Position numbers and translations under genes: made by a program
The notes under the pieces: generated by a model
Database searches by the model: none
Seen by the model: only the letters and a program-made list of their open reading frames with translations
Told to the model about the DNA's origin: nothing
Shown here: piece after piece, positions 40,300-64,000 of the stretch
How the letters are laid out: each line of letters starts with the position of its first letter
Numbering within the stretch: position 1 is the first letter of the stretch
From: Physcia stellaris
Taxonomy: Eukaryota; Ascomycota; Lecanoromycetes; Caliciales; Physciaceae
Length of the DNA stretch: 64,000 bases
Reading direction: 5' to 3'
NCBI GenBank assembly: GCA_018902385.1
Contig: JABSSW010000012.1
Span: 765,124-829,123 of the forward strand

Positions 40300-40783
40300 C
40301 TGAGATAGCCATCGTTTACGTCGTACGATACTGGAGTAGGTGGTTGAAGTGTTCGGTCTTTGATGGCCGCAAATGTCAGAGGCTGTTCGTTTCGGCGCAA
40401 ACTTGGATGTGGATAGTTGTTACGCTTTGATGATTTGAGATACCCTCGGAGCGCAAGGTGACATGGATCACTGAAGTTGGATGATTCTGCCCAAATCATA
40501 GCGACTCGTGTATTTTAGGATATCGCTTCTTTTCCCAGCATCCATCGCTCTGCATTAGCTTCTATCCCTGGCAACGAGCCTGGGTGTGACGACCATGCCC
40601 CGTAGCCCCGCCAGCAGACGCTCATACGCACACTTGAATATGTGCACCAATGCTCGCTCAAAGCAAAGACCTCTCGCCAAGCCACAACCGTTCCCTCTCC
40701 ATCCTCTAAATCCATCCACCTCTACCTCCCGACCTTCTTCCCAAACCCCAGAAACCCGGCAGCACCCCCCCTCTTCGCGCCCC
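40300..40783. other. Intergenic region between convergent GCN5 and CSN7
   Basis: About 480 bp. No supported gene; C-rich low complexity begins near 40700. Confidence 0.4.
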
Positions 40784-41622
40784 TCATCCCCCCAACGCCC
40801 CCCTCACCCACAACCGCCCCATCCCCACCTTCCCCCCAGGCCCCCTCTTCCTCCTCATCTGCTCCTCCTCCTTCATCGCCCTCTCCACCAAGCCCTCATA
40901 CTCCCCCTCCCTCGCCTTCCTCTCCCTCGCGCTGACCCTCACATCCCTAACCTGCGCCTCAATCTCCCCCTAACACGCCCACGCACCTCGCATCCCAGTC
41001 CCCGAGAACCTGCAGCATCGCGGGCACGGAGTTCGGGCGCAGATCGCGGAGAGGTGCGAGGGAGGAGATGTCCACGCGCTGGCTCTGGGTGTCGAGTTTC
41101 GCGTCGATGAGACCGGCGTAGATGGCGCTGATGATGAGGTCTTCGAGGGCGCGGGTTGTGGGGAGGGAGAGCGCGGTCAGGAGGGAGGGGTAGGTTAGGG
41201 TTTTTGGGGAGGGGGAGAGGGCGAGGAGGGTTAGGAGGCGGAGTTTGTGGGATTGGGCTTCTGAGAGGGGGGGGAGGGCCGGCGTTGCTGTTTTGTGTTA
41301 GCTGGTGCTCTGACTTGTGATGCCGTGGGAGAGGTTATGATGGGAGGGAGCTGGAATGTGGTTGAGGGGACGAACTTTCGTAGTCTTTCCATGTTCCCCA
41401 GGCGAAGATCTCGAGGAGCGTGAGGTAGGGTGTGTATTCTTCTGCTGCGTTGCGGAGAGCTTGGATGTTGGGTGTTTGCAGCAGCTCGGCGAAGACGAAG
41501 GTGTTTGGGGCGGACGTGGCTTGTGTTATTAGGTCCACGGCTGCTCGCGGTGAGGTTGCGGATTTGGAGAGTAGGGTAAATGGTTCTAGAGCGTTCAAGG
41601 CTTTTTGCTGAATTGGATCCAT
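40784..41622 (-). CDS. CSN7: COP9 signalosome subunit 7, frameshifted near C-terminus
   Basis: PCI-domain subunit of the COP9 signalosome (cullin deneddylation). Exon 1 41622-41376, exon 2 from 41287. Seen: KALNALEPFTLLSKSATSPR, TQATSAPNTFVFAELLQTPN, YLTLLEIFAWGTWKDYE, then SHKLRLLTLLALS, ALEDLIISAIYAGLIDAKLD and MLQVLGDWDARCVGVLG. In the frame as given a TGA at 40959-40961 ends the protein just after VLGGD. Dropping one base of the five-base run at 40966-40970 restores the expected continuation (EIEAQVRDVRVSARERKARE..) to a stop near 40784. The 3' part is very G-rich on the minus strand. Sequencing error or a real truncation; the PCI domain is complete either way. Confidence 0.85.
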
Positions 41623-42866
41623 GGTTTGTGTGAGGTATATTGCGCTTTGTAGGGAATACGACGGTGCTCGGTTTAGGGTGCAATATGAAGCTTACGCCAA
41701 TTGGATCAAGGATCGAATGGCAGCGTATCTAGGAGAAAGTGTTGAGGGCAATTATTTCAGTATCAATGGGTGAGCTTTATCGATAGCAGATTGGGGCACT
41801 TCACAGAATGTAACACAATTTCCTTGAAAATGGGAAGAGCCTGCGTTCATAAATGTGATTTCATCGGTTCGCAACTACTAGCAGTATTCTGTTTATACTG
41901 CTACTCGAGGTCTCTGATAGAGCTGATCCTGCCGTCCTCCAAGTGAACCAATTTTCACACAGCACCTGTTGTTTGAGAACTGGAAGAAGACATATACCGA
42001 CTCCGTCACAGTAGTAATCTTGTCCTGGACAAGAGCCTTCTTCGTCAATTCATAAAATGAAACGCCGTCATCTCCAGACCGGTCGGCTAGGTATATCCAT
42101 CATTGCTCTCCACAATTCTCAGTTGCAACTCAGAGAGGTCAAGTTCGTTCAAAAGCTGCCTTGAGGCAAGCTTGACGGGAGCTGTCCAACGCAGTAAAAG
42201 CCTTCGGGCTCGTGAAATGAGACGATTCGATGAATACCATTCAGCAGAACCCAAAGAATGAAAGGCTTTTCGGGCTCGGAAGACTTCTAGGGTGCTTCGC
42301 TTGTTGTAATCTGCCACGGACGAGGCAAACTTCGAGCCATGAACGCTCCGAAAAGCACCATCGGCTTGATGCTTGGTATTTCCAAAAGTACCAGATCTCG
42401 AGCCCATCGAGACCGCGTGGTTCTGACTGAATGTTGGGATGATTGAGCCCACGCATGGGGAGCGTAGCCTACCCGGGGCAATTCCTCTCATGATGCTGCA
42501 ATATATAGGCATAGAGCGAATTAGCGATTGGTGCCCGTCTAGCATCGGCGGGCTCTGGGCTCCTTAAGGTCCAGGATACCTACTATCCCAGTCTTAGTCA
42601 CGCATTATGAGAGCCATTGATTCTCTGAGAATATAATCATACCTATCATGATCTGCTTTCCGTCGAACTTATTCTTGGCTTGCTTGTTTAGTCCAAACCG
42701 TGCCCATTTATTCTATCTTTATGCGACATGTGAAGCTCGTCCGAACTTCTTGTTAGACTTCATATACCACTAGACAACCAGAGATATTTCATAAGTAATC
42801 TTCAAAGAAAATTCGAGTGTTCACTTGAACACTATCTTGTACAGATCATTTTTCGACACCACATGA
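41623..42866. other. Intergenic region, one unsupported ORF
   Basis: 1.24 kb. A 152-codon open frame (42087-42545, minus) has no domain, no membrane pattern and no ATG context that persuades me. I leave it unannotated as a gene. Confidence 0.45.
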
Positions 42867-44257
42867 TCATAGATGCGGGATGAACTCAGTCCACTGTACC
42901 GTTGCAAATGCGTCGGCTGGCAATGATCGCTGGCTTAAAAAGATTTCAACAACAATATAAGTCCTCGCAAGCGTGTAGATCACGGTAACAGGTATCATCA
43001 CCGCTACTTCCCACACAGGGATGAAGACAGCCGCTCTCTCAGCCTTCTCCATACTCGACATGGTAGCAACTCTATGACTTTCTGGAAACAGCTTGTTATG
43101 CCATCTCCTCCATCGGCCAACACGGTGGCCGTCTTGGTAAGTCTCGCATATCCATAAAATGACGGCACAGATTGTCATGGCAAGGCAACTAGCCCTCCAT
43201 AGCGTCATCTCAATGGGAGTAGGAAAGTCGAAGTTCCAACCGATAAAATGAATAGCACAGTAGACCATGTCGACGAAGAAGAAGATGATAGCTTCTGGGC
43301 CCGCGCCAATGACCGGAAACCTGTCATTAGTGAATCGCGGCAATGGCCGTTCAGGAGGTCCTCTTCGGAAACGAAGATGAGGTTGAACTTCGGTCAGCCA
43401 TGATGGGGACTGGTCATCAATAAAATCAAGCGGCGTCTGTTGATAAGGCTTGCTTGCCCTATGACCAGCATTAATCAGTATATCCTCAACAGTGGCTTCG
43501 ATGTGAATGATCGTAGGACTTTCGACATCGAGTGGCTTGTTAGCCCATTGGAAATACATTGCGAGAGTGCAGAATACAAAGCTCAGCGTAGTAAGCTCGA
43601 GGGTTGTCACAGGAAGATGCTGAATGGCGCGGCCAACAGTCTGAACGATGAACCAGCCTGTCTGCAAACATGTCAAGGTCTTTTGAAAGCCATCAGCCTT
43701 ACTTTTGTCCCACACTTCTTTCTCGGTCAGCGTGGGATAGGTGGTGTATCCTTGTTGGATGAGATACAACAACTGCTTTGCATTTATGGGAAACGAACAC
43801 CAACCACGTGGCTGCAAGACGAAACCGCCCATGTTAGCATAGAAACCGTGGCGCTTGGTCCAGTTTGGATATCCAGCGGCCCTGAAAGCTTGAACTGAAC
43901 GCCCAGCTTCGACCTTTTGGCCAGTGGCAAAGCCGAGGACGAACTCTGGCGCCATGATGGCCTGAACCATCCATCGCAACTTCCTGCGGATTTGGTGCCA
44001 GTATGTCTCGTGTTTCGCTGGAATGTTCAAATGCAATACTGCCCAAGTGCACAGAAAGACTGTGAAAAGACAGGACCTTGAATCAATTAGCGATGGCCAC
44101 CGTCAAGAGTGGATGTACGGTACCATAGGATATCGAAGGTGCCACGGCCGTCGGGCTGACTGACCCAGCCCTCTTTGCGACCCTCAGCCGTGGTTTGATT
44201 ACTCGCGTGAGAACGGCGCACAACAAGCGTGAGTAAGACGATCAGGCTGGCCGTCAT
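42867..44257 (-). CDS. Fungal multi-pass membrane protein, unknown function
   Basis: Two exons on the minus strand, 44257-44124 and 44076-42867; 447 residues. Member of a lineage-expanded fungal family I recognise only by its pattern: a leader with hydrophobic start (MTASLIVLLTLVV), GTFDILWSCLFTVFLCTWAV and LHLNIPA, then LRWMVQAIMAPEFVLGFATG, a KRHGFYANMGGFVL segment, WDKSKADGFQKTLTCLQTGW, GRAIQHLPVTTLELTTLSFV and several later helices (VDMVYCAIHFIGWNF, VAVMIPVTVIYTLARTYIVV). No enzyme motif is visible. The joined first exon supplies the conserved GTFDILWSC part, which supports the start. Divergent from the lipid-droplet hydrolase with 517 bp between starts. Confidence 0.88.
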
Positions 44258-44774
44258 TGCCCAACACAGTCACTACCGCATGAAGGCGTTTTGAGATGCA
44301 CAGAAACCTCATCACTGTTCCTACTGTAATGACTCAGAGAGACAGGTGTTGCGATACGATTCACGGGGAGCAGTATTCACCGATGTTCGTGGTGACTAGG
44401 ATTGTATCAAGCAGTGGCGGGGTGTCGCAAGCTCGAGTACTTTTTCCACAGCCACATGGAAAATGCGCGTCTAGATTAGAGTACCGTAGTGCAGATCACT
44501 CTTAGCGCCTGCCACATTTCATGCTCCTGGCCATTGTGCAGGCTTCCCGCCTCAGGTGGCCTGGGAAATCCAAGGAGAGGATTCAGCGGCTGTGTGAAGC
44601 AAAGTAGGAATGCTCGCGGCCTTGCTGGATCACTCTCGGGGGAAGCTGTCCGCTGCCAGCTGACTACAGTATATAGTGAAGCCTGGACCCCTTCGTGTAG
44701 ATATCCCTTCATATTCAACATTTTCCCTCACTCAATGCTATCTGGCCGGTATCCTCAAAACTTCCCTGACAGCT
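44258..44774. promoter_or_regulatory. Divergent promoter, membrane protein / lipid-droplet hydrolase
   Basis: 517 bp between start codons. The frame of the hydrolase is open upstream to 44676 and includes no conserved residues. No clear element seen. Confidence 0.4.
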
Positions 44775-46020
44775 ATGGCTATCTCAGTCGCACAGGCAGA
44801 TCGACTGGCTTACTTCCCACCACCAGAAGATAATGCTACAAACGGTCAAGACTACCTCATATTTCTGATTGGCGGAAATCCAGGGTTAATTTCCTATTAT
44901 GAGCCGTTTCTAGAGACTCTTCATGCTCTCCTATGTTCTTCCTCTGCTGCGGAGACAGCAAGGTTTTATGTCTATGGCCGCTCTTTGGCAGGCTTTGAAA
45001 ATTCACGTCTTGCCAATGGAGAAGAATCACCAGGCCCTTTAGGACTGCCAGACCAGATTCAGAATACCGAAGATCTGATCTACAACGAGATCACGCTCTA
45101 TCGGAAAGCCAACTCATTCGAGAAACCTCCTCCGAAAGTTATCCTTATCGGTCATTCGGTAGGTGCCTACATACTGCTGGAAATGATTCGCCGGCACAGG
45201 AAGCGAATCGAAGATTTCGATGATGAAGATTTCGATCTTATTGGCGGTATCTTGCTATTTCCTACCATTGTGAATATTGCAAAATCGCCTCTGGGTCTCT
45301 TTGCTAGCGTAAGCAAGCATGATGGCCTGGGAAGCAGCATCAGAGAGTTGACTCGTGTAGACTTTCCTACGAATCCCACGCATTGCCCAGATCGTAGGGG
45401 CTTTCGCACGATTTTGGACAAATCTCATCCCTACAGCTGTTCTCTACCACATCATTAAGTTGATTATGAGATTCCCCGAGCATGCAGCCCGAACTACCGT
45501 CCGCTTCGTGAGGAGCCCAATGGGAGTGAGGCAGGGCCTGTAAGACGACATCCCTTCTCCTAAACTTCTCTCTATGCCTCCAGGCTGATAGCTGAATTAG
45601 ACATCTTGCAAAGGATGAAATGGATATGATCACCGAAGACAAATGGAACGAAGAGGTCTGGGGAGCCGCGACAGCGCCTGGAACTAACCTCCAGGATACA
45701 GCCAATTCCAACCTTGTATTCTACTGGGGTCAAGGAGTATGTCGTATTCTGGAGATTCCCCTGCTCTCTGTAGGCTAACAGTTGTGAAGGATCAGTGGGT
45801 TGCTAACACTACAAGGGACGATTTGATCGCAGCTAGGGGTCACCGGACACGTAAGGGCTCGGTCGTTCACATTGCTAAGGACTGGAAACCGACAATGTAT
45901 GTGGACGAAGATAAGATCCCCCATGCTTTCTGTATCAAACACAGTGAAACGATGGCGGAATGGGTCAGCCAACGAGTGGTGGAGATCATTGCGGTGCATA
46001 AAGTGGAGAGCAGCACCTGA
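44775..46020 (+). CDS. Lipid droplet-associated hydrolase (LDAH family)
   Basis: Alpha/beta hydrolase of lipid droplets (LDAH, DUF2305 family). Exons 44775-45308, 45361-45539, 45601-45736, 45790-46020; 359 residues. Seen: LIFLIGGNPGLISYYEPFLE (typical family opening), nucleophile elbow GHSVG at about 126-130 (Ser 128), GGILLFPTIVNIAKSPLG, then after the first intron IPTAVLYHIIKLIMRFPEHA, and near the end PHAFCIKHSETMAEWVS with the probable catalytic His. The chosen start MAISVAQADRL agrees with family N-termini; the frame is open further upstream. Substrate is debated in the family (sterol ester or other neutral lipid). Confidence 0.92.
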
Positions 46021-47192
46021 AATGAGAAAAGTGCACAGAGAGAGCACTCTCGGCTTCAAACATCGATACCGGCACCGTATCTAGCATAGTCCGACACAAG
46101 AAGATGACTCCGATGTTCGGAGAGAACAGTCAGGCTTCGACAACCATCCCAGTACTACAAAGTCGCAAGCTGACTAGCGGTACGTCACTGGTGTGGAAGG
46201 ATAGATGGGCGCTTGGTAAGCACATCAGCGTCTGGCCACTGCGGTCAGAAGCGGCAGGAAGTGACGTCTAGGAAGACGTTCCCCGAGAAGTCTAGAGTAA
46301 AGGAGTGGTGCCGTTACGTGTTGGCAGACTCTCAACGGTTGCAGTAGACAGCACCAGAAGAAGGGTCGGATGTTGAAAGGTAGCAGTCTGCTGTTGTACC
46401 AGTATTTAGTGTCGGTAGTTATTTAATTATTCCACCCCACTCTAGCCGTCTTCAAATGCTCCATGCAAATAGCAATATGGCAGGTAATATGGCAGGTTGT
46501 CTTTCCTTCCGCAATCAGGATACAGTCAGCCCAAGTAGAGAACCCAACATGCTGTTTAAGAGGTCAATTGGATTCAAGCCTTACAAGGCTTAGATACTGG
46601 CGGTCGATCGATCCTTTACCGTTCTCACGAAAATCCCATGATGGGGAGCAGTAGTCGAGGCAATGGTATTAATGGTGGGGTAAGGGGGTAAGCTCGGGTA
46701 TTTAAGGTATGTGGGCCGTGGCTTGCGGCGGCAGGGTTACTACACTTTGCTAGTGGGAGGCTAGTTGGTATTAGCAGTGAAGGTCCGCAATCATATCGAA
46801 CCTCTGTGACTCAATCCCCGTGGATCGGTGCCTGATGTAGGTAGATAATGCGAGCGGTACCTTGAAATCCCGCCAGTCTTCCAAGATAAGCACATGTCTG
46901 CTCTTTGACTCCTCTCCCACATTATCATCCCTGTTCGTCTTCCCTTGCAAATCGTGAACCCTTTGTTCTGACCAGCTTTCACGTGTGAGGAAACGGCTGA
47001 GACGGTACCTCCTTCTCTTTCCATTCAACAAAACTGATCAGAACGGAAGCGAAGCTTCTCTTCATCTCACTCACTATTCCTCTACCCCTGAACCTCCCCT
47101 CCCTCTACTCCCAGCTGTTTCTCGGCTTGACAGCAGACTCTCTAGATACAAGTGCAATAGGAGCCAGCAGCCCGTACACCCAGCGTGCTATC
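46021..47192. other. Intergenic region, no gene seen
   Basis: 1.17 kb between two plus-strand genes. A perfect 12-bp tandem duplication (AATATGGCAGGT, 46474-46485 and 46486-46497) is the only structure noticed. The arrestin promoter must lie at its right end. Confidence 0.5.
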
Positions 47193-48788
47193 ATGAATCG
47201 CATTCTCCCCAAGTCAAAGATCGAGACCACGATCGTACTCAACGATCAACAAGAAGCATTTGCCCCTTCATATACATCGCTTGACGAGATCAGTGGGCAG
47301 GTGTCAATCACTGCACCCTCAGATACCACCTTCGACCAAGTCTATATCACCCTCGAAGGCACAGCCAAAACATCCATCGAAAAAGTCGCTTCGACCTACA
47401 CAACGAGTGGCAGAACGGAGGCATACCAGAGCTTTTTGCGTCTAGTCCAGCCAATCGACGAAGCAAGCTATCCTGAGCCTCGTGTATTTGACGAAGGAGA
47501 CACCTACACTTTTCCCTTCACCTTCAATGTACCGGAGCGATTGCTCCCACAAGCATGTACCCATCCGCGAGACAACGATGCGGTGCACGATGAGCACTTA
47601 TGCCTTCCGCCCAGCCTCGGTGATCCCCTGGCTGCGAGTGAGGATGGGAAAATGCTGTTGGATGATATGGCACCCGATATGGGCGTAATCTCCTATGCTC
47701 TCAAGGTCCGGATCACAAAAGGTCGTGGACCCAGAGGAAAGCATCAAATCATCAGCGAAGAGTCTCGAAGGCTTCGAGTCATACCAGCATGCCCAGAATT
47801 GCCTCCTCTCAGTGTTCAAGGCGGTCAGACTGATGACTATAGGCTAAGAAAAGAGAAAGAAATAAAGAAGGGGATGTTCAAAGGCAAGCTTGGGCGTTTG
47901 ACAATGGAGTCAGTGCAACCGAAAAGCCTACGATTGCCACCGGTGCGAGTGGAGGCTTCATGCCCGGTCACAACGCTGGCGACTGTTAATCTACGTTTTG
48001 ATCCTGCGAACGAAAACGCAGAGCCACCACGTCTCAATCAGCTCATTGCGAGATTAAAGGTGTCGACCTTTTTTGGCAGTGTTCCCATGCGGGAGCTACC
48101 GACAAAAGCGAACGACTTCCACTACAGCAGCATTCGAGGTATCTATACCGAGACGATTCACCTTTCTTCGCGCTGTTTGGCCTCGGTACAATGGGAGTAT
48201 CATAGCACAATTTCGACCCCTATCCGACGTGACTCGGCGTTCAATACACTCTCAGGCCAGGGCACAGCTATACCTCGCCCCTCGGAGTCTTACAATGGCA
48301 AGTCATTCTACACCGCTACCATCCTTGTTCCGATCACTTTACCGAAGGGCAATAAGACGTTCACGCCAACCTTTCATTCCTGCCTTGTCTCGCGTGTTTA
48401 TGCATTGGATTTACAGTTGTCTGCGCACGCCCCTGGCATCATGCCAACACTGAATCTGAAACTACCCATCCAAGTATCTGCAGAGGGTAACATAAATGCT
48501 CGACCGTCGATATCCGACGAAGAAGCCGCCGCGATCGCTGCTCGAGAAGCAAATGGCGTCTTCCAACCGAGAAGCATAGCGCCACCGAGTCCAGAATATA
48601 CAGCCCGAGAATCACAACTCATTAGCATGCAGTTGCCGAGGCCGGAATATCCACCAAGCCCTGAATATGAGGAACACCGACAACTGGTCGGGCGACTTGA
48701 TCGGGATTACGACTCCGATCATCGTGAAGACGGGCCGCCTCCAGGCTACTCTTCTTTGGCCAGAAGGACACAATCGATGGCGGTTTAG
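47193..48788 (+). CDS. Arrestin-related trafficking adaptor
   Basis: Arrestin-fold adaptor that recruits a NEDD4/Rsp5-type ubiquitin ligase to plasma-membrane cargo. One exon, 531 residues from ATG 47193 (MNRILPKSKIETTIVLND); an upstream in-frame TTG start is less likely. Arrestin N: YTSLDEISGQVSITAPSD, DQVYITLEGTAKTSIEKV, YTFPFTFNVPERLLPQAC. Arrestin C follows from about residue 260 (LRLPPVRVEASCPVTTLATV). The tail has RPEYPPSPEYEEH and the PY motif PPPGYSS, the expected WW-domain ligand. Cargo unknown. A short upstream coding exon cannot be excluded. Confidence 0.9.
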   Translation: MNRILPKSKIETTIVLNDQQEAFAPSYTSLDEISGQVSITAPSDTTFDQVYITLEGTAKTSIEKVASTYTTSGRTEAYQSFLRLVQPIDEASYPEPRVFDEGDTYTFPFTFNVPERLLPQACTHPRDNDAVHDEHLCLPPSLGDPLAASEDGKMLLDDMAPDMGVISYALKVRITKGRGPRGKHQIISEESRRLRVIPACPELPPLSVQGGQTDDYRLRKEKEIKKGMFKGKLGRLTMESVQPKSLRLPPVRVEASCPVTTLATVNLRFDPANENAEPPRLNQLIARLKVSTFFGSVPMRELPTKANDFHYSSIRGIYTETIHLSSRCLASVQWEYHSTISTPIRRDSAFNTLSGQGTAIPRPSESYNGKSFYTATILVPITLPKGNKTFTPTFHSCLVSRVYALDLQLSAHAPGIMPTLNLKLPIQVSAEGNINARPSISDEEAAAIAAREANGVFQPRSIAPPSPEYTARESQLISMQLPRPEYPPSPEYEEHRQLVGRLDRDYDSDHREDGPPPGYSSLARRTQSMAV

Positions 48789-50018
48789 AATGCATGAAAC
48801 ACCATCCTTTATCTCATAGAGATTAAGCCGGACGCCTTCTAAGCTAGAGTTCGATCTCGTTCCAGGGATTTTCGATACTTGTGACAATATCCCTTTTCGA
48901 CAAGCATAAGACGTACCACGTTTTCCAGAACCGAGCTCTCATTACCAGAATACTTTGACATTGAGGCTCCTTATAGCGAGATCCGGTTGTATCCACATTA
49001 CGCGGGAATCTATATTAAAAAAGCACGACAATAGAGCAGAGGCAACAGGCTTGAAATGGAATAGCAAATAGCTTGTTTTACCAACCCATAACAGAGCAGT
49101 ATATGATTTGAAGGTATCATAACTCTGTAGACCAGCTCTCTTGCGATAGCTCTACTAACGCTAATTGCAGTCATGCTCGAAGAAATGAGATATTGTATCT
49201 TCGTCGAGGCGGAAGAGCCCACGACACATTCTCTGATACCAGGACAGCTATGCTAGGTAGCCTTTGACCATCTGGCACGAAGCTGCTGGTTGCTGTTAAG
49301 CCAGATGCGGATGTTGTTTGGTCTCCTCTGGTGGTTCGTGCATGGTGTAAGCGCCCAGGAAAAAGAAGATAGGGGAGAGGGAGAAGAAGAATGGCTGGAC
49401 CTGTGAGCAGCATGGAGACATCAGGAAGATTTAAGCGTAGCTCTGGTCTCGGAGATATGTCCTTTTATCTCCAAAAATCAGGGGGAATGTATACCTTACC
49501 AAACTTGCCGAACAGATTTATCCATAGTAGCCCATGACTCCCCAATCCGTCACCCGCATGAAAACAAGTAGACCTGCCTTTCCAACAAATCTCCGTACCC
49601 GAATAGAAACCACAAGTTCGTCGGCTCAAAGTGCTGCCAAGGCAGGAATCTGGCTTGACGCACTGCTGATAATGGTGGTAGGGTGGTAAGGGACATGACA
49701 ATCTCCCCATCCAAAGACCAGATCCTCAAACATGCAGGCGGTGATATGAAGCTAATAAGGAGCCACATAGCTAGCAGGAAGGAAACACAGCAGACTCCGT
49801 AACTCTGAGGAGGTATATTGCATTTCTGATGTTGAGTGATGGTCGTATGCTTTTGCTGCTATCGAGCAAATGCCCGTCCCCATCCCCCACATACATGACC
49901 CGGAGCTCACCTCTAATCTATTAAACATCCAAGGAACGCCATTACCATGCCATTACCGCTGAGCGTGCTACAAGCAAACCAGAAAAAAAGCCACCGAACC
50001 AAGATTAGCTAATCAGCT
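48789..50018. other. Intergenic region between convergent genes
   Basis: 1.23 kb between the 3' ends of the arrestin and TM9 genes. Open frames on the minus strand (about 70-80 codons) show no domain. No RNA gene recognised. Confidence 0.5.
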
Positions 50019-52430
50019 TTAATTGCCCTGCAAGAACAAATTAGCAAAGTCGCGCTCTGCGGGAAGATTGGCTGGATTGGATGGGTTCACGTACCCGTAT
50101 ATACGCCTCACAAATGCATATGCAGTCAAGAAGCCGACCGTGCCCGTCAACAAGCCGTACACCGAACACGCCAGCAGGCTGTAGCTGAAGAACAGCATGC
50201 CGGACACGAAGCCCTGGATATTGAGCTTGGTGAAGTAGAACCAGACGCAGTAGAGGAAGACCCAGAAGGCGCTGCCGCCGCCGATGAACACGGACTGCCA
50301 CCACCAGTGGTAGTTTTCGGCGCAGAGCTGGATGTATGTTGCTACGATTGTGACTTCCACCACGGTGACAATGTCGACGATGCTGACGACGGTCAGGAAA
50401 CCGAAGACGTAGTAATATCCGCTTTTATCCTGCCACAAGCTGCGGAAGACGAAGAGTAGCTCGATGAAGATGACCGCGAAGGGAACCAAGCCCGCAAGAA
50501 GGACGCTGTGGACGCTTTTGGTGTACCATGCCTGCTCTGGAATTTGGCGAGGGATGCTGCTTGTTTGCGTTGGGTGCTCGTACGGTTGGCTGTGGTCGAA
50601 ACCATACCAACTACCAACGTAGACAAGTGGAAGCTGAATGAACAGCCAGAGGAAGAGGAGACCGACGAGAGTGCCGAACGGTAGAGCTGTGCTGGAAGCC
50701 TGAGCCCATACAAATAGATTCAGGATGAAGATGGTTGAGAACAGTAGACCGGGAAAGAGCAATGCAGTCTGGAGACATGTCAGTTAAATTTTTTTTATCG
50801 GCTCATTAAATCATACCATCAAAGTGTTCTTCCTCCAATTTTGGCCACCGAATGTTTTGTAGACCCTGGCAGAGAAGTAACCTGAGAAGATACCCGCAAA
50901 GATGAAGAGACCCATGCCAACGCTCACGAATCCGCCTCGGAAGCTTGGGTTGAGGATCCCTACGCAGCTAAGAAGTAGAAGCGAAGTAGCCATAAAGACT
51001 AGCTGCATCCCGGATCCTATAAGGGGTGCCAGAAACCCAGCGTACTTAGGAGCTCGGAAAACGTCCGCATGAAGAAGCTTCCATCCAGTGATTTCGTCGA
51101 CCGAATCTTCATCAGAGGATGCATCCAGATCATCCACGTCGCCTTTCTGTTCCAGCAGGCTACCTTTCTCGATAGATCTTGGTGATCTAAGTGCGGTCCT
51201 CGATTTGACCCTCTTCATACGAATCTTCCCGTCCTCGAGCGAGCTATCTTTGATTCGACCTTTGCTATCCGTAAACACTGTTCTATGTATTATCATCACA
51301 ACCACAGCGCTCAGAAGACCGCAAATTATTAACGAGTTGACGATCGCGAGCCAGTGTATAGTGTTGCCCTCCTCTTGATTGTTGAAATACATCTCCCATC
51401 TATGCGACCATTCGACCCTCTCCTCCTCTCGAAAGTAGACAGAGTAAGAATAGGGTATTGCGAGCGTGGACCCGTCATCACTATCGTCGTCATCAGGTAT
51501 GTAGGAGGAGTGTGGGTACTGAGCGGCCAGCGTAGTTGAATTTGCTGCAAGGTTAATTTCCAGACCTTCTGTCTCTCCATGGACATCCTGAGGGCAGCCT
51601 TCGCCGTTCCTATGACGAGCCTCGATACTCTTAGGATAAACCTCAAATCCAACGATAACCTTTCGCCCATGGACCCCAGAGCGGCCAGGTGCTTTGCGCC
51701 ATCTGATGACCAATGTATGGTGATTGTGGATGAAGTACCTCGGCTTGTTGGTAACTGGCGAGAAGTCTTTGTATCCGATCTTGAATCCCGCGGCGTAGTA
51801 CTTGTGACTCTTATCGACCGTCACGAAACTTGTTGCACCAGGAAGATTGTCGACGATCCATTCCGACACGTAGCCATCTTCAATCAATTGTCGTGCCCGT
51901 TTCACCCCTTTTCTATCCACACGGTGTGTGCAGAGAAATTGGCACTCCTTATCTTGGCCCATGGCAAGATCGTAATCGGAGGTCATGATCCGGTCCCCCC
52001 GAAGTACCTCCCCCAGGTTGAGGGGCACGCTCTTCCCACTAGGATACCCAGCATGTGACTTCCCCGACGGTGGGCAGACAAAGGGTAGGTCATAGTGCGC
52101 ATACTGTAGTTGTGACTTATCCGAGTAGACCTTATTGACTTGCAATTGGATAGCTTGGTCTTCTAGGTAGGTACGAATTGACCATCCTACACCCGAAGAG
52201 AGTCAGCTGTGGCTTCACGGTGCTGTTTTTAAAGCTCCAACCCCCTCAACCGAAGTCCCTCCCAGGCCCGATATCGAACGTCACTTAGAGCAGCATATTG
52301 CCTACCATGCTTGCGAAGATATCAGTAGCAAATTAGAGAGCCTACCTGGTATGTAAAAGGACTGTGCGGAACTGATCACACAGGCGAGGGTCAGCAAACT
52401 GCCCAGGCCAATCCGGAAATCAGCATGCAT
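50019..52430 (-). CDS. TM9/EMP70 nonaspanin
   Basis: Nine-membrane-span protein of endosomes/Golgi (TM9SF, yeast EMP70/TMN family). Exons on the minus strand: 52430-52346, 52186-50817, 50768-50019; 734 residues. The first exon gives a signal peptide (LGSLLTLACVISSAQSFYIP) ending at the mature start. Luminal domain: YSDKSQLQYAHYDLPFVCPP, LGEVLRGDRIMTSDYDL, RYFIHNHHTLVIRW. Membrane part from HWLAIVNSLIICGLLSAVVV, with GWKLLHADVFRAP, YFSARVYKTFGGQNWRKN, and IFIELLFVFRSLWQDKSGYY. Fits the family in order and length. It is the last intact gene before the AT-rich block, 0.5 kb from its edge. Confidence 0.96.
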
Positions 52431-52917
52431 TGCGTCGAACAAGGCGGCCCAGATGGTTCAGTGACTTCGAGATACCGCAAGCTGATGCCAAGTGAAACTT
52501 CAGGCGCCGTTGTCCTTGGCAGGTATTCCGTACTGGTGCAGCGATTGCGGTTTGGGGATTGACGAATAGGATCTGCCCCTGATCCCACGACTGGTGTCGA
52601 CTGTGAAGGATTTCGGATTACAATCTAGTAGGTCGCAAAGGTAAACGAATGTAAGTGGCACGAAGCGCCAACAATGGACGAGTAGATCTGCGATGAAGTT
52701 AGACGTTCAGGAAGAAGGATTGATTGCTCGTGATTGTCGTATTGGAAGGCGAAACGTTCTATCTCGAAAGGGCTAAGCGTGACAGCTTCCATCTTGGGTA
52801 CTCGTTTGATTGATTGATTGATTGATTCATTAAACACTCGAAACCGATCTTAAGAATCCGTTATGCGACTAAAAACAATCGAATCAATCATCTTTTAGAA
52901 AATTTTTGACTCTATAT
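52431..52917. promoter_or_regulatory. TM9 promoter region up to the AT-rich boundary
   Basis: Normal composition with CpT and CpC dinucleotides up to about 52917, then an abrupt change. It contains the (TTGA)n microsatellite. No other gene. Confidence 0.5.
52806..52827. repeat. (TTGA)n microsatellite
   Basis: Five and a half perfect TTGA units over 22 nt, lying about 90 bp before the composition boundary. Confidence 0.9.
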
Positions 52918-53197
52918 CAATTAATTTGTTTTTGATGTTTAGTTTTTCGATTCGAACAAATCATTTCAAACATTTTTATTTTCATGATTTTTTTTCATTT
53001 TCATTTTGTACGAAAATTTTCAATTCAATGCATTTTTTTTGCAATTTTTATTTTTCGTCGTTTGTAATTGAAATTCGTAAATAATCAATGAATTTTGATT
53101 TTTCGATAAATTTTGTCGTTTTCGTCAAATTGATCGAATTGATCAATACGTTTATCAATTTCATTTTTTTTCATTTCGTTTTTTTAATTTCGTCAAT

Positions 53198-55444
53198 TCA
53201 TAAATTTTTTCGAAATTTTTTCAATTTTTTGCATTCGAAAAACACGTGTTTAATCGTTTGTTTGTTATGACGTACATAAACACATGAAATTTTCGATTTG
53301 TTTTTGTTGTATAAAAACGTTCGTAAATTTATTTTGATCGTGCGAAATTGTATTGTTATGACGTTGAATTTTTTTGTGAATTTTTCGTGTAATCGCAATA
53401 TTGTTTTATTGAATTTCGATGTAATTTTGTACAAATTTTTTTTATTGCAATTTTTTTATTTTTGATTTCATTGTTATTTTATTGATTTATTTATCACGAT
53501 TTTGACAACGTTTTTCAGCATTTGCACGTTCGTTTGTTGTGTTTTGTGATCGATATTCAATTTTTTTTTTTCGTTTTTTCAATTTTCATTTCGTGATTTG
53601 TTTGATCGTAACGTTTGTTTGTTCGTTATTTTCGATATCGATGTGAATCGAAATTCAATGCAATTTCATTTCAATATATTTGTTTCGCAATTCGTTGATC
53701 AATCAAATTATTCATTTCATCAAATATTGATCGAAATTGATTTTTGAATTGTGTATCGCTTAAATTATTGTTTGATTGTCGATACATATGACGAATTTCG
53801 ATTTTTTTGCAAATTTCAAAAACGAATACAATCGCATATTCATTGTTAAAACGATGTTATATAATTTAACAAAATAAATCGTGTATGACGTAATAAATTT
53901 CAAATACGTTTTCGTTATAATAAATTTCGTTTTTGAAAATATCGTTGTTGTATTCATTTTGTCGTTAATGTCGTTTTTATTTGTGTATATGTAATTGATC
54001 GAATTCGTTGTTAATTGTATTTTGTGATATTTTTCGATTTTCGTTTTGTTTTTCATGATACATGCAATTAACGATGTTCATCATGACGATGCGACAAAAA
54101 ATAAAATTTTTTTCATATCGTGTGTTTTGATGTTTTTTTTTTCGAATTTATTCATTAATTTTTTCAATAAATTGACGTTTTTCGATTTTTTGATAAAACG
54201 ATCGCGTATAATCGTGTCGTATGTCGAATTTATTATCAATTTCATTGCGAACGCGTTAATGAATTTGTTCAAACGTAAATGCATGAACATTGAATTGATT
54301 TCGATATTGAACGTTTTTTTCGAAATCGTTTTGTATGTTTTCGTTATGATTTTTTCGATTTGATATTGAACGTTCGTTAATTTTTTCGTAATTTTTTTGT
54401 TGTGATTTTTTTTTTCGTTGATATGTATTATATCGAATATACGTATATGAATTGTGAAACGAAAATCGTTTGTATCATTTGTTTCATTTTCGAAAATTTA
54501 ACATTTTATGTAATGTCGTCAAAATTGCGTAATGTTTTTATTGATTTCAATGTTTTCGTTTTGTTTTGATTAATTTGTGTTTTTCAATTGAATTTTTCGT
54601 TCATTATAACGTTCAAATATTTTATTTTTTTGTTTGTTTTGATTTTTTGATTGAATTCAAAAAATAATATCGATTCGATGACGTTTGTTTTTTTTTCGAT
54701 TGAAATAAATGAATTGATATTTGAAAAATGCAAATTTCATTTCATGTTTCAATGTTCACGATACGCAAATTTTTTCGTGTGTTTTGATTATGATATCGTT
54801 GCATTTTTCGAAAATATGATTTTTCGTTAACATTTTTACATCGTCGACGAATTCGTTCGTTGAAATATTTTTTTTTTCAAAATTTTCAATAAAAATGCGT
54901 TGTAAAAAAAAAAAATCGATAACATAAATGAATTTTGAAAAATGTTTATAAATATTTCGAATTATTCGATATCGTATTCGTTCGTTTTCAAAATCGTCAT
55001 TTTATTAATCAAAAAAAAATTTATTCATTTTATTAATTTTTCGTCGAAACGTTTCGTTTTGAAATTGTGTAACAATTTTAAACGAATTATATTGTCGAAA
55101 ACGTTTATCACGTCGAAAAACATAATTACGATTATCAATTTTTTATTTTATATCGAATGTATACGTTTTATCATGTAATGTAATGCGTGTTTTGTAAATA
55201 CGATTTTTTTGATTTCAAAATGAATACGTGACAACAAATCGTGTTTTTTCGTCAAAAAATTGATTCGTTTGATCAATATGAATTTCATGAATTTGTTTAT
55301 AATATTGAATAAAATTATTGATTTGTACGAAATCGTCATTGAATAAATATTTTTGTTTGATTTACGTAATGCGATCGTGATCGATTTTCGAAAATATTTC
55401 GAACAATAATTTTCGTTCAAATTGACGTTGTATATATGTTGCAA
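53198..55444 (-). mobile_element. Decayed Tad-type LINE retrotransposon
   Basis: Non-LTR retrotransposon read on the minus strand, identified from residual protein blocks. Reverse transcriptase (55444-55148): YFRKSITIALRKSNKN, then FNIINKFMKFILIKRINFLT and HALHYMIKRIHS, in the order of Tad-like RTs (IALRKPGK, LLNTxGKxxExI, EHALHxLVExIHxAW). RNase H (54056-53760): IYTNKNDINDKMNTTTI and FVICIDNQTII, where intact elements have YTDGSG and TDNQAAI. C-terminal block (53434-53198): INLRTFLYNKNK and CVYVRHNKQTIKHVFFECKK, the usual zinc-like end. Catalytic residues are lost and stops interrupt all parts. The element probably extends beyond 55444 toward 56 kb; its ends and poly(A) tail were not found. 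Confidence 0.82.
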
Positions 55445-56939
55445 ATGTGATGCGATAATATCATTTATTTATTTTCATATTTTATTGATTATGTCGTCGT
55501 CGTTTGAAATTTTGTTCGAATTTTGCTTGATTATAATTTTCGTTATTTCGTGAAACAAGTTTGCTCGTGATTTTTTTTTAAAAAAAAAATTGTGTAACTT
55601 TAAATCTTAACAACATTCGAAGATTTTCACGAAAACGAATTCGACGACGAATATTATTAATTTTACAACGTTCGCAATTATTATTTTTTAAAATTGTTTG
55701 ATTGTACGAATATAAACATGCGTGCATTGAATTTCGCGATCGTAAATCGTTTGCGCATTGAAATATGTAATGTATGAAACAAATGTTTTTCGAAATTCTT
55801 GAAATCGAATGTCGAAATTTTTTTTTCATTGAAATTCGAAATTTCAACAATCGAACAATCAATATTTCGAATTTACACATTTTTTCGAACAATACGTCAT
55901 TATTTTTTGAAAATTTTACAACGTACGAATTGAAACAATTGTAATTTTTAATTGCAATCGAATTCGAAAAATGCGCATGATTTTGTCATTTGATTCAAAT
56001 TGTATTTTTTTGAAAAAACGAAAAAACGCAAAATTGAATTTTGATTTTGATTTAATTAAACAATAATGTCGCGAAAATTAATTCGACAAAAAGAAAATTT
56101 CTTTGCGAAAATGACAAAATTTCAAATAAATTCGATTTTATCGACGACGACGACGATTATCATATGTCAATTACAAATTATTTATGACATGTCGAAGTTA
56201 ACGATTATATACATGTATTTTTCATATGAAAAAATAAGTCACATAACAACATGTCGATCAAATAATCGAATTTTCGCAATTTCGCAATTTCGCAACAACA
56301 TCAAATTGTTTCGTCGTTTTTTAATCATTTTCAATGTTTGTTTTCTGATTTCTGTTGCGCATGTCTCGTATATTTGATTTGATTAAACGTAATACGTTCA
56401 AAAATTAAAATAGTCTCGTAACATTGATTTTTGAACATAAATTTCGTTGAAAAACGAAACTTTTTAAATCGAAATTTTTTGAATTTTGCTATAGAAATTC
56501 GACGAAACAACTTATGAAAACTTCAAACGAATTAGATTCGTATTCAGATCGTATCGTAATATTGATTAATTGATACGAACTTTCGCGAATTGAACTGAAA
56601 AACAAATATTGAAAGCGATGAAACAACGACGAAACAATTTGAAAATGTTGCGAAAAATTTGAAAAATGCGAAAAATCGATTGAATGAAAAAAATGAATGC
56701 AAAAAAAACAAAATGCGACGTAAAAACGATAAAAAAACAAAAAATTGAATGAATGAAATGTTGCGAAATAAATAAATGAATGATCAAATTTCGTAAAACG
56801 CAATCGATTGACATCAATTTCGAAACATAACATGAATTTTAATCGAATTTAATTTTTTTAATAAAATTTTTTTTCATTGATGACTAATAATTTTTCGCGA
56901 AAAATCGTCTGACAACACATTCAATTCAAATATAACAAT

Positions 56940-59900
56940 GTGAAAATTGTGTTTATTCGTGATTTTAAACACGATCACGTAAAATTGATCATGAATGAAA
57001 CAATTTCGCATTTTGATATCGATGTTCACATATCGCAACGATTGATTTTGAAATTTGTTGACGATTATCGCAAAAATCGATCGAATAAAATATTAACGTT
57101 TAATAAATTGACAAAACACATTCGTTTGACGATTTTTATTGTTTTCGTCATTTTTGAATTGCAACGATATGCGAAATATAACGATTTTGATATTTTTTCG
57201 TTTATCGTCAATGATTTCGATTTCAATAATTTGTTCATTTATGCGAATAATTCGAATTTTGATTTCATTGCATTTGACGAAAAATTTCAAATTTGACAAT
57301 ATCATGACAAACATATCGACTTTCAAGCGAAAAATATGAAAAAAAAGCGAAATTTCGTAATAATGATAAAAACATTCGTCGTCGAATTCATTTTTCAATT
57401 CAAAATCAACAAAAATATTGAAATTGTGTTTGAAATGCACGTTTTCACGAAATTTATCGACGCAAATTTCGTTGATTTTTTGAACGTCGATATTAATTAC
57501 GACGAAAATGATTCGTTCGTTAAAATATTGATTGTTAAAAAAACGAAAATTCAAATCAAAATAAATGATATTAAAAAATTTTTGCAAAAAATTCGTTTTG
57601 AACAAATATTCATGATGTCACGATGCGAAATTAATGATTTCGTCGATATTTATCGTATCGTCAATATTCAAAACGTTTTTAACGAAAACAACGATTTTTT
57701 GACGATTTTTTTCGATAAGCGAAAAATTTTGAAAACGCATGTTAATAATAAAAAAAAAAATTTCGACGTTATTTTAAAAAAACAATTTTTGCAAACACAT
57801 ATCGACGATAATATTTCGAAATTTTTTAAAAACAACAAAAAAATATTGTTTGAAATTTTCGCAAAAACATATCATTTTTTTTTTAAAAAAAAACGATTTC
57901 GTCAACATCGTAAAAATAAAAAAAAAATACGATTGACAATCATGAAATTTCATTTTCGTTGTATAAAAATTTTGTTTTAAAAAATCAATTTGATTGTTTT
58001 AATAAATTCGACACAATCGATATTTTTCTTGATTGAACAAATGTTTTCATTTTTCGAATTCAAAAAAATTTTGAATTTGAAATGAACAATAATATCGTTT
58101 TTCAAAAACGTAATCGCAATATTTGAAAAAATCATCGCAAAAATAATAATATTTTTCGAACGTAATTTGATCATAACGATGTTTTGAACGAAAATTTTAT
58201 TCGTGTTCTCAAAATCGTTAAAAAAAATTGATTTTGATTTCACGAATTTTTATTTTTTTTGATCGTTTTAACGATCGTATTGATCGTATGCAATTGATTC
58301 GCATTAAATCGATTTCAATTCGCGACGACGAGAATTGAAAAATCAATTAATGTCATTTTTTCGCGAATTAAACGATTTTTGATTTGAACGTATTGATCAA
58401 AATCAATAAAAAATTCGAACAAATTATAATGAAAAAAATTTGAAATTTCGTCGTCAACAATTTTATTCAACAAATTTGACAACAAAAACAATGTCAATTG
58501 TTTTTTTTGATCGTGCAACGCATTCAAATCGATTTCAATGAAATTTTTCAAAATAAATTTTTGCAATAAAAAATAATCGCGAATTATTATATTTTTGCAA
58601 TTCGAAAAAAATTTGCAATGAAATTAATGAAAATGCACGAAAATCGAAAATGCGATCGCAAAAAGTAAAAATCGAAACAAAAATCAAAAAACATTTGAAA
58701 ATGTGCACGTGTTATTTCATTTTCGATCAATGAAAAATTTAAAAAATTCAACATCATTATACAAAATTTTTGTATATTCAAATTCATTTCGAACATTTCA
58801 ATATTCGAAAAACAATCGAAATTGATTTACATTTTTTTGTGTTTCGTTCACAATTTCAAGAATTTCGCAAAGTCACATTCGATCAAAATCGTCACGAATA
58901 ATTTTTTCAACATCGTCGCAATATCGAATTCGATGATTTCGATCATGATTATATTTCATTCGTTATCGTCGTCAATTAAATCGAATTCAACGCAAATCTG
59001 TTTGTAATTCAAAAGTTGAAAAGCGATTTTCTCATCAAACGTTTTTTCGATTTGCACATTCACGATTTTTATATCGTCAAAAAAAATGCATTTTTTTTTG
59101 TTGACGAACAACAAACGCAAATAAAAAACGTCGTCGAATTTGAAATTCATGAAATACATTCGATTTACGCATTTTTTTTTGTCGCGACGTTCACGTTTTT
59201 TTTTGCTTATTTCAAACGAAAAATTCGAAAATGTTTTGATAAAAATGATTTCGTGAATTCACAACGATTTCGCGATTTTTTTGCGAATGACAAAAAAAAA
59301 TTCATTATTGCGTTCGATTTCGTGCGTTATGCGATTCAATTCGAAATATTCGATCAATTGAATCATGCGAAAATTTTCGTTTTCAATCATTTGATTTGCA
59401 ATTTTTTTATCGTTGAAATTAACGAAAATTCGATTGCGATTTTTCAAATGCAATTGAAATCGAATGATTGCGAATTTAATTTTATCGAAAAAAAAATCGA
59501 ATATACGTCAAACGATTTCGCAAAATTTTATTCAACGCGCGTTATGAAAAATTTTGATTTCGTCAACGAATTTTTCGTTGTTTTGTCGATTCGCACGAAA
59601 TTCGTTGATTCGACGAATGATAATAATGTTAAAAAATACGTCGACATAATCGTTTTTTTTGAAAATATATTTGTACAAATATTTCACGAATTTCGCATTG
59701 ATGCAAATTTCAACGTTAATATGAATTTCGTATTTTTTCAACAATCAAAAATTGTAAAAAATCATTCATTTGTTGTTTCAATATTTTTCATCAACGAATT
59801 GACATGAAAAACGACGATATCGCGATAAATTTGAATGATGACACAAATTCGTCATCATTAATTTTTTCTTGAGAAATCATTTGATGCATTTATTTTCGAA

Positions 59901-62453
59901 ATTATGACAAAAAATTTTTTCGATATTTTTGCAATTTTTGTGAATCATTTGTTCAACAATCAATTCGTAAAAAGTTTTGCATTTGACGTTGAATTCAAAC
60001 ACTTTTTTGAAAAAAATGATTACATAAATAGCGTCGTCAATGTTGTTCGCATCGAATTTATTTCGAGAATTTGCAATGAAAAAAATATGAACATGTGACA
60101 AATTTTTTTTTTGAAATTCGATAACGTAAATGTGAACGTTAATTATTTTCATGACATGACGTTCAATAAAATCGCGCAAAAATTTTTGAATTTCAATTGA
60201 AATATTTTAATTATCAAGTCGAAACGATTGACGATATCAACGATTTCAAAAAAATTTCGTTTGAATTTTTCTCAATGTAAATTGCAAATGAAAATAATGA
60301 AAAAAATAAATTTATTGAATTTTCGAATCAAAACGAAAACGTTTTGCTTTTTGATTTTCATGTATCGAAAAATTTTGTATAATTCGACGACAATATCGTC
60401 ATTTTTTGATCAATATCATTGAATTCATAATTTTGATTCAATCGATTCATGAAATTTCGATAAAATTCAATTCGCAAAAACAATTGATTAAAACGAACGA
60501 AATTGAAATTATTAAATTTTACGCAAACAAACGCATTCATCAAAAAATGTTGAAACAATCGATTCGAATGCAATACACGATTGAATTTTTTTTTGCGATT
60601 TTGTATATATAAAACATCAAAAACGAACGAAATTTTCATATTAATACATTGACGAAAGCAAAAAAACGAAATTTTCATATTAATACATTGATTTCGCGCA
60701 ACAGAAAAACAACAAATTTATCGTATTTTTTTTGCATTAATCGATCGATTCGTTAAACGTATGCAAATTTTACATCGTGATGAAAATTTCAACAACGCGT
60801 TGAATCGTGTTAAAAATACGTTGTTGAAATTCAAAGCACGAATAACAATTCATCGTCATTGAAAATTTCACGATTTGACGAATGAAAAATTCTATTAATA
60901 AAAAAATAACTTTTGCATTTTTTTTTCTTTTTTCGATCAAATATGCAAAAAACGAAACATTTGACAAAATTTACGCAAAAAAAAAGTTAATCGAAATAAA
61001 AATCGTATTTCGATACGAAAAATGCAAAAAACGACGTATTTGAATGATGTACGAATAAAATTTCTTTTGAATCATTCGTTTCGATTTTTGTTTTCAATTC
61101 GAATATCGTTGTCGTCGTTTTTTTCGTTTTGATTACGTGCAAATTTTTCGTTTTCGTTATCGTCAAATTTCTGATCGTGTTTCTGAATCGATCGAAAAAT
61201 TGCATCGAAAAAAATTTTGCGAACACGAAAATCACGACTGTTTTCGTAATCGAAAAAATAATAATAAACATTCAACTTTATTTTTCGCAAAAAAATAAAA
61301 AAGAATATCGAAACGTCATGTAACAAAAATGTTAATAAAACATTCGAATGAAATTATCGTCGTAAATTTGCATCACGATATTTTTTTCGATTGATTTATT
61401 CGAATTTGACATTTTTGAAACGTTCAAAATAACAACAATTTCGTCGAAAATAAATTTGTTGTGCGTTTTTTTCAACATTCGCTTGAAATCATGTTGTTTC
61501 AAAACGATTTGAATTTCGAAATCGTCATTTTTCAAACGATCATCGCAATTCTTGAACGATTGAACGTACGAATTGTATTTGATCATCAATGTTTGTAACG
61601 TGTGAAATTTTTTTTCAAACAATTGTTCATCGTGAATCATACGTTTTAATAAAATCTTTTGCGAAAAATCGAACGAATATATTTGACAGAAACGACGACG
61701 ATCATTTGAATCGACAAAAAAGACATTCAACATGTGATGAATCGATTTCATGATGCGAAAAATAATTCAAACGTTGTGTAATTCATTCATTTTCGCGTTC
61801 TCATTGATAAATGACAAAACGTTGTTGAAAATAATGATTATTTTTTGAAATTTTTTGTATCGTTTGATCAATCGTTTGCGAAAAGTAAAATCATTTGTAA
61901 ATTTCAATTGTCACATAAAATCATCGAAATATTTGAAATTCAAATCACGTTTTAAAATTGCGTTTTTTTCAAAATCGTCAAACAATTTCGTTATAATTTC
62001 AAAATTTGTTTTAAAAATTATCATATCGAATGAGATTTTGTCATTGACGCAACAATGTCAATATTTGTCATCGAAAAATTTGTTGTGACATTTTTCGTCG
62101 TATTGATAAACATCGCAAAACGAACACACGTTGTAATTTTTTTGAAATTCAAACAATACATATTTTTCAAACATCACGTTTTTTTTGCGAACGATCATAT
62201 AATCGAAATTCAAATTTTTGTCGTCACGTCGAGTTTTAAAATCAAATTTTCGAATTCGAACGCGTTGTTTGACAATTTTTTTCGCGTATGTTTTTTTATT
62301 TTTTTTATTGAACAAACGTGATTTTTTTTTCGTCATTATTTTGATCGAAAACGTGTTCAAATTTTTGATTTGATTCGTGATCGACGAAATTTGCGTATGA
62401 TCGTATGAAAAAAAATCGTCGAAATCGTGATCATCGTTTTTTTTTTGAAACAA
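56940..62453 (-). mobile_element. Decayed Helitron (Rep/HUH plus Pif1-like helicase)
   Basis: Rolling-circle transposon on the minus strand. Blocks in order: tentative N-terminal zinc region 62453-62058 (CSFCDVYQYDEK); 61751-61332 with IVMQIYDDNFIRM (intact type DIVVRLRGG..); 60678-60358 with KKFNRVLHSNRLFQHFL and DIDQKMTILSSNYT; Rep 60179-59877 with VHIYVIEFQKKNLSHVHIFF, keeping the His-x-His of the HUH motif; 59744-59532 with HINVEICINAKFVKYLYKYI; 59159-58956 with FYLRLLF; helicase 58243-57977, whose Walker A (GGTGKT in intact elements) reads ENTNKI, followed by VMIKLRSKNIIIFAM; helicase end 57605-57093 with YFNERIIFVVINIDVQKINE and RLKVDMFVMILSNL. Ends and terminal hairpin were not found. 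Dead copy. Confidence 0.88.
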
Positions 62454-62759
62454 AAATTGAAAAAAAACACGATTCGCGAAACGCGCAAATCGTCGAATTT
62501 TTGACGAAAACGTACAACAACAAATTCAAAAAAAATAAAATTGTAAAAAGCGAAAACGTTGATTGAAAAAACTCGTTGATCGTTTTTTGATTTTGAAAAC
62601 GTTTTCGTCGTTTTTTCGACGCGACATCATTGTTAACAATATTGATAACATCGTTGAGAAAACGTTTAAACGTTGTTTTCGTAAAATTTGCAAAATGAAA
62701 AAACAAAATGATGATTTCGTAAAATTCACATATACGACGAATTGCTGTTTTCGAGCGTG

Positions 62760-63240
62760 TTCAATTGTAAAAATCTAAACGCGCTGACGTAAAACAGATT
62801 TCAATAATGTATTAGTTTTACGATAACGCATCGAACTATTGAAAAACGTGAAATTTAATAGATTTCAATTATTAATTATCAACATCGTATGAATATTGTA
62901 AATGTAAAACTAATCGTTGAAATTCAACGAGAAAAAAAATGAACAATCTATTTATATTCGTATTTGACGTAATAATTATGACGTTTTGATTAACGTCATG
63001 ATTATAACATCAATTCATGACGTTTCTATTAAACGTGCGCTTATAATTATGTTACATCTGAATTACATTCATTATTAATGTCAAGCATTTGCGTTACGCA
63101 AACGCGTACTCAAAATTAACGCATGAATTAGTTGTTCGATAACGCGAACGTATTACAATTGTTTTTTTTCTCAATGCGTTGATTTTCAATGCATAAAAAC
63201 AATATCAATGCAATAAATAAAAACAACATGTAAATGTCTT
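62760..63240. other. Less-mutated segment rich in TGACGT motifs
   Basis: This segment keeps more CpT/ApG than its flanks and contains repeated TGACGT/ACGTCA words within 62960-63025, partly as inverted copies, and several AACGCG words. It could be the upstream end of the Helitron or a separate element. No protein block recognised. Confidence 0.4.
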
Positions 63241-64000
63241 GATTGTAAAATTTCAAAAAATTCATTGAAATTCGTATCAAAAACTTTCAAAACTTCGAAA
63301 ACAAACGAAAAAAAAGAAATTTTCAAAAAATATCATGTGCGATATCATTTTGCGTTCATGTATCGCTTGCTCAAAAGTTCGTTAAAAATTTTTCAAATTT
63401 TTGTTCAAAAAAAAAATTTTCAATGTAATTGCGCAATCGTAAAACATGCTTTCAATGCAAATTTTGAATGACAATGTTTCAAAATCAAAAATCGAAATGT
63501 CAACATCAAAATTTGAATAACGAAATTCAAATTCAATTTCATCGAAACGTCGACGCGAATTTTTTTGTTGATAAACATGAAATTTCGTCGATTACGAAAA
63601 CAGCGTGTCGATAATTTCACGATGTTGTTTATCAACAAATTTTTTGTTCGCATTTTTTTTTTTTCATACTTTTTTTATCACAATTTTTTTCGCGTAAAAT
63701 ATTTTTCAACGCTTGCGTAACGTTTGTTTATGTATATAATCATCAACACGACAATTTATTTATTTTCAAATTATGATCGATTTTCAAAAAAATCGACGTA
63801 AATATTTTGAAACGCACGCGTCACGAACGCAAACAACAACAACAAATTAACATGTCATAATTTGCGAAAATTTCGCATGTATGACGTGTTTTGATCGTCA
63901 TGTGCGTTCGCGATGTTTTGAAAATTTGCGAAAATGTCGTTTTCAACATCATGATTCAAATTTTTGTCATTCGATATGTATTTGTTTGCGCGAACGATAC
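63241..64000. other. AT-rich mutated DNA, unassigned
   Basis: Continuation of the mutated block to the window edge. Open frames on both strands show no residual transposon motif I can name. Confidence 0.5.

Follow-up and report, generated by a model that had tools for sequence, protein, structure and literature searches.

We analyzed a 64,000-bp window of the Physcia stellaris genome (assembly GCA_018902385.1, contig JABSSW010000012.1, forward-strand positions 765,124 to 829,123), whose right-hand end is occupied by a block in which, on both strands, C is retained almost only before A or G (52920..64000; 11,081 bases, GC content 0.26). Comparison of observed dinucleotide counts with those expected from base composition revealed no CC (expected 178) and no GG (expected 191) in this block, and few CT (61, expected 545) and AG (48, expected 515). 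CA (631, expected 498) and TG (693, expected 564) are frequent, CG reaches 3.9 times its expectation (713, expected 184) and TA falls to 0.41 times (631, expected 1522). The 1405 plus-strand C are followed by G (713), A (631), T (61) or C (0). The original prediction, made from the letters of the sequence, had described a near absence of CpT, CpC, ApG and GpG over about 11 kb with CpG and CpA frequent, and had taken the loss of ApG and GpG to mean that both strands are affected; the counts agree on both points, and CpY changes (C before a pyrimidine) are even across strands in the copies compared below. Its direct count over 53041-53400, in which all 39 plus-strand C precede a purine (G, 23; A, 16), was reproduced exactly.

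The observed/expected ratio of CpC/GpG is below 0.2 in the last 11 of 64 one-kilobase windows and in none of the 53 before 53001, and the flank (1..52800), which serves as a control, has normal composition. A dispersed repeat begins near 52806, and CpY depletion sets in some 110 bp further to the right, with CpY per 100 bases falling from 23 to 9, 3 and 0 across 52701-53100. The left edge of this repeat (52806..52919) is little mutated. On the right the block continues as far as contig C12 itself does (829123 bases), and its true border may lie further out.

The DNA of the block is repetitive. The first (52806..55555, about 2.75 kb) bears a reverse transcriptase at another place, C24:427064-429833, which is 82% identical to it and overlaps a stop-free RVT_1 match. 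Besides the repeat itself, 39 matches were found among the best 40 of 86 candidates, many with both ends in common. A second family covers at least 55533..61530 and provided the first copy comparison; with 56001-60000 as query, 85 matching pieces were returned, the query itself and short pieces included. When ten broken frames from the block were compared with Pfam, a single weak transposon match emerged: a broken minus-strand frame (59880..60206) resembles Helitron_like_N (PF14214; 24.2 bits against a cut-off of 28.9, E 4.3e-5). The original prediction had spoken of long interspersed element and Helitron families, which is partly supported, by the RVT_1 match at C24 and, for Helitron, by the one fragment that scores below the cut-off.

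Cytosine changes between repeat copies

To follow the direction of change, we aligned four mutated stretches of a Gypsy family (L040, L041, L014 and L023; matches <400 bp excluded) to the reference copy L033 (C12:58801-61800), whose GC content is 53% and whose 999-codon frame contains a single stop. L033 and C5:1165011-1168009 are 95% identical, have open reverse-transcriptase frames and are apparently unmutated so far. The family matches 38 further places of at least 1.8 kb at 68-82%, among the best 40 of 209 candidates.

The sites changed lie chiefly at CpC and CpT. In L040 the changed fractions are CpC 64/77, CpT 48/95, CpA 2/88 and CpG 2/80; in L041 they are CpC 74/78, CpT 65/96, CpA 2/86 and CpG 2/84. 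The saturated L014 has CpC 111/112, CpT 65/65, CpA 21/89 and CpG 5/100, and L023, which is older and rich in transversions, CpC 62/77, CpT 65/92, CpA 20/79 and CpG 17/78. Pooling by the class of the 3′ base, CpY against CpR (C before a purine) is 112/172 against 4/168 in L040 (Fisher p = 1.6e-39), 139/174 against 4/170 in L041 (p = 2.3e-56), 176/177 against 26/189 in L014 (p = 1.7e-74) and 127/169 against 37/157 in L023 (p = 4.5e-21). CpC is changed more often than CpT in L040 (p = 1.1e-5) and L041 (p = 6.2e-6), an excess not detectable in the saturated L014 or in L023 (p = 0.16). CpA exceeds CpG in L014 only (p = 2.3e-4). The CpA preference that is usual, if not universal, in repeat-induced point mutation (RIP) is absent from all four stretches, and C-to-T changes mainly at CpA, an outcome that had been named in advance as contrary to the prediction, were not what the alignments gave.

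The copies examined share with RIP that C:G is converted to T:A on either strand of repeated DNA. Of the differences, 116/120 in L040, 143/148 in L041 and 202/207 in L014 are C>T or G>A, and in the four stretches pooled the two strands are alike at CpY (270/345 and 284/347). The 5′ base has little effect, either at CpC (changed after A 73/78, C 66/72, G 87/99, T 84/94) or at CpT (A 59/80, C 75/100, G 41/72, T 68/96). Hits per CpC site amount to 1.8 in L040 and 3.0 in L041, compared with 0.006-0.0075 per site for other kinds of change, which points to hypermutation rather than slow decay. L040 and L041 have 31 mutated CpT sites in common (30.5 under independence) and 60 mutated CpC sites (58.6 under independence), indicating that the copies were mutated separately.

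For the second repeat family of the block, nine copies, the window copy included, were compared with the reference L025 on C49; matches <800 bp or <80% identity were dropped (L031 and L032). Mutation is less advanced in L025: in the first 4.5 kb of this copy the observed/expected ratio is 0-0.08 for CpC/GpG, which are nearly gone, and 0.35-0.60 for CpT/ApG, so that CpC is the first to be lost. Its depletion fades near position 5930, close to where homology to the window stops. Across the nine copies, sites changed to T are CpC 211/223, CpT 2008/2325, CpA 740/4937 (15%) and CpG 362/4958. The claim that CpA and CpG are kept therefore holds as strong sparing, but CpA is not untouched. A clear pattern is harder to see when the window copy is set against its relatives, since both sequences have already reached saturation at CpY and the leftover differences are often at CpA (against L022: CpA, 103; CpT, 42; CpG, 34).

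Spread over the assembly and methyltransferase genes

The CpC/GpG ratio is also below 0.1 at the other end of C12 (L006) and where four further contigs begin (L035, L036, L037 and L039); the remaining two of the seven contig starts examined are partly affected (L034) and normal (L038). As five of the seven starts (C1, C4, C8, C12, C15, C30 and C60) lie in CpY-depleted sequence, the assembly tends to break in such blocks. Interior sequence was sampled at 15 arbitrarily chosen loci, each of 10 kb; depletion affects 5 of their 150 one-kilobase windows, all of them in two sharp-bordered blocks (L014 and L019); of the two, the block at L014, where repeat status was checked, contains a Gypsy stretch. 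Single-copy DNA is spared in this sample, as it is in RIP, with 53/53 flanking and 145/150 interior windows not depleted. Depletion in single-copy genes and in the genome at large, which had been named as evidence that would count against a repeat defence, was not seen among these windows.

A second control, a dispersed repeat only some 210 bp long near the left end of the window (236..446), is not CpY-depleted. It is of the size of a short interspersed element and has 39 matches besides itself at 77-88% identity among the best 40 of 297 candidates. Three of its copies (window 236-446; L014 5661-5851; L020 9228-9433) retain 39, 42 and 48 CpY, counts that would fit a length threshold for mutation, such as the minimum of some hundreds of bases that RIP has.

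A search for RID and DIM-2 homologues, proposed with the original prediction, identified two RID-like genes and one DIM-2-like gene, a set that fits the filamentous ascomycete it had supposed. The search used PF00145 only, which a divergent Dnmt5 could escape, and gave four matches in three genes (L001, L002 and L003), all at loci of normal composition. L002 is DIM-2-like, matching PDB chain 9bap, which is labelled DNA (cytosine-5-)-methyltransferase and which we take to be Neurospora DIM-2, with an E-value of 4e-180; it also has a sub-threshold BAH match. As expected of a genome with RIP, genes of the RID/Masc1 class are present: L001 and L003 are RID-like, both with PPCQ at motif IV, and carry EET and EQT, respectively, at motif VI. 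L003 has a longer N-terminal part than L001 and reads PPCQFFSDAHT at motif IV. EET and EQT are the triads described for the Masc1/RID group, EET being known from the RID of Botrytis and Pseudogymnoascus (PMC6709928), a likeness that would hint no more than weakly at Leotiomycetes.

A candidate mutator and its rivals

We consider it probable that the block records a RIP-like, repeat-directed C>T hypermutation with an inverted 3′ target preference, CpC > CpT >> CpA, CpG. At the level of sequence, the copies establish the context order, the action on both strands, the near absence from fresh copies of changes other than C>T and G>A, the independence of the hits and the restriction to long-repeat blocks. 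A cytosine-mutating repeat defence with a different context preference had been predicted, and the CpC and CpT targets in the copy alignments support it. Homology between copies of long dispersed repeats would trigger the mutation. C is changed to T on both strands, and whether a C is hit depends on its immediate 3′ neighbour: CpC comes first and CpT next, with CpA and CpG hardly affected. Like RIP, the process would take place during the sexual cycle. The mutator is probably a RID-class enzyme, for which the two RID-like genes are candidates, with the DIM-2-like gene as an alternative, and it would read the 3′ base unlike the Neurospora enzyme. We infer that the process is RIP proper: premeiotic, triggered by pairing and dependent on RID.

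Several points weigh against this interpretation. The tie between any enzyme and the target context is drawn by inference, and the loci examined are a sample of a 44-Mb genome. The two near-identical Gypsy copies, L033 and that on C5, are unmutated or almost so, which requires recent transposition or rare crosses. CpA is also changed in the heavily mutated L014 (21/89) and L023 (20/79), where a second, weaker CpA activity may exist besides the one directed at CpY, and the length threshold is based on just three copies of one short repeat.

On the copy data we set aside three other explanations. A cytidine deaminase unrelated to methyltransferases, editing single-stranded repeat DNA, could produce C>T at high density on both strands. 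The context recognized by APOBEC and AID enzymes lies 5′ of the C, whereas in the Gypsy copies it is set by the 3′ base, almost regardless of the 5′ one; on this evidence, no search for deaminase genes having been made, we regard such editing as improbable. The presence of methyltransferase homologues would suit methylation of repeat cytosines before pyrimidines followed by slow spontaneous deamination. Methylation alone elsewhere raises mutation roughly tenfold, and the CpC rate in L040 and L041 is several hundred times that of other changes, an excess that counts against slow deamination and makes it very unlikely. The idea that a skewed count has disguised ordinary CpA RIP deserves almost no credence: CpT signals have been reported in several species with CpA RIP, but the lightly mutated copies keep their CpA (2/88 and 2/86) and CpG (2/80 and 2/84), and the excess of CpG and deficit of TpA in the block are the opposite of what CpA RIP produces. 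In methylation induced premeiotically, repeats are methylated but not mutated; here the repeat sequence itself is altered.

The rival to which we give most weight, although it remains unlikely, keeps RIP-like mutation and assigns it to the DIM-2-like enzyme instead of a RID-class one, as a heterochromatin-linked RIP with its own context preference. The genome has such a gene, of normal composition, and residual RIP in Neurospora rid mutants is thought to go through dim-2 (PMC7296669). Against it, reanalysed crosses have no k-mer shift without Rid1 and a shift still present without Dim2 (PMC12543289), and species whose RIP is of the ordinary CpA kind, L. maculans among them, commonly carry DIM-2-like genes (PMC4352252).

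Among known systems, RIP in Neurospora crassa is alike in its dense C>T change on both strands of long repeats, its 3′-base context and its RID-like and DIM-2-like genes, but its order is CpA>CpT>CpG>CpC (PMC5496416), as opposed to the CpC>CpT>>CpA, CpG known here from sequence alone. Trichoderma reesei likewise departs from the Neurospora preference, yet with CpA and CpG ahead of CpT and with CpC last (PMC5496416). CpT>TpT changes in transposons link the present case to Botrytis, Sclerotinia and Magnaporthe (PMC4352252) and to Anisogramma, Ascochyta and Colletotrichum, where CpT signatures occur beside CpA or, in some families, instead of it; in these six genera CpT stands beside or competes with CpA, and the available text does not name CpC as a target. 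Botrytis and Sclerotinia apparently have two RID-class genes each, according to a table of PMC4352252. One survey describes CpT to TpT as predominant when control species capable of RIP are aligned (PMC7882544), and in Monilinia CpA RIP is accompanied by CpC to TpT double changes. Transposons of Microbotryum likewise carry RIP-like change that is biased to C>T and favours one particular 3′ base, but its target is CpG (PMC4352252), here among the best-kept contexts. A survey of 1,239 species describes a CpA preference as common to RIP-like defences (PMC12543289).

The original prediction knew of no described filamentous ascomycete with a CpA-sparing signature. In keeping with this, no signature with CpC as the main target and CpA spared was found in the accessible text of the open-access literature searched, a search that did not cover the Clutterbuck 2011 survey of RIP forms. 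PMC5602860, considered as a CpC report, was discarded since CPC in its available text is a strain label. A RIP-like process with inverted target preference is well supported by the sequence comparisons and would be a variant of RIP new within the literature searched. How RIP enzymes select cytosines is an open question, for which a CpC-first genome would represent a natural specificity switch, and the occurrence of two RID-like genes with different motif VI types in one genome opens the link between enzyme and context to testing.

Detection indices, stop codons and a 5.8S copy

Standard RIP detection formulas are blind to change directed at CpC and CpT. The block has a TpA/ApT of 0.43, a substrate index of 1.33 and a composite RIP index of -0.89, compared with 0.70, 1.27 and -0.57 in the rest of the window. 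As the composite index is lower in the block than in normal flank, a heavily mutated genome would pass as RIP-free. CpY/TpY separates the block (0.019) from the rest of the window (0.899). A broader conjecture, which we hold only tentatively and think somewhat more apt to fail than to stand, is that a mutator reading a 3′ pyrimidine, either a RID paralogue re-specialised to CpC/CpT or an enzyme that is neither RID nor DIM-2, may be what an entire lineage of fungi chiefly relies on to defend its genome, and that surveys of TpA gain and CpA loss have filed such species as RIP-negative.

The stop codons of the repeats carry the same signature. CpA RIP turns CAA and CAG into TAA and TAG; with C before A mostly spared, these codons would seldom become stops, and TGG to TGA would be the main early route. 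Stops inside RVT_1 matches are TGA in 249 cases, TAA in 33 and TAG in 3 (149 of 150 rows, from the best 150 of 527 candidates), an excess of TGA that can be attributed to the CpY process acting on TGG (GpG>GpA). The nonsense changes in L040 (2) and L041 (3) are exclusively TGG>TGA, and those in the saturated L014 are TGG>TAA (3), TGG>TGA (1), CGA>TGA (1) and CAG>TAA (1). An altered code in which TGA specifies tryptophan was rejected as the cause, as TGA in the mutated copies stands beside TGG in the reference copy; it is further countered by the 1001-aa DIM-2-like frame, which has tryptophans without internal TGA.

An unmutated rDNA unit was not found in the assembly with one 17-base pattern conserved in fungal 5.8S. 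The sole 5.8S match reported among the best 39 of 2644 candidates (L042, C41:45851-45960) is a copy mutated by the same CpY rule, and its 110 bases used as query matched only their own place. In this copy the C and G runs of the conserved stem have turned into T and A while the central CG is retained, as the rule demands.

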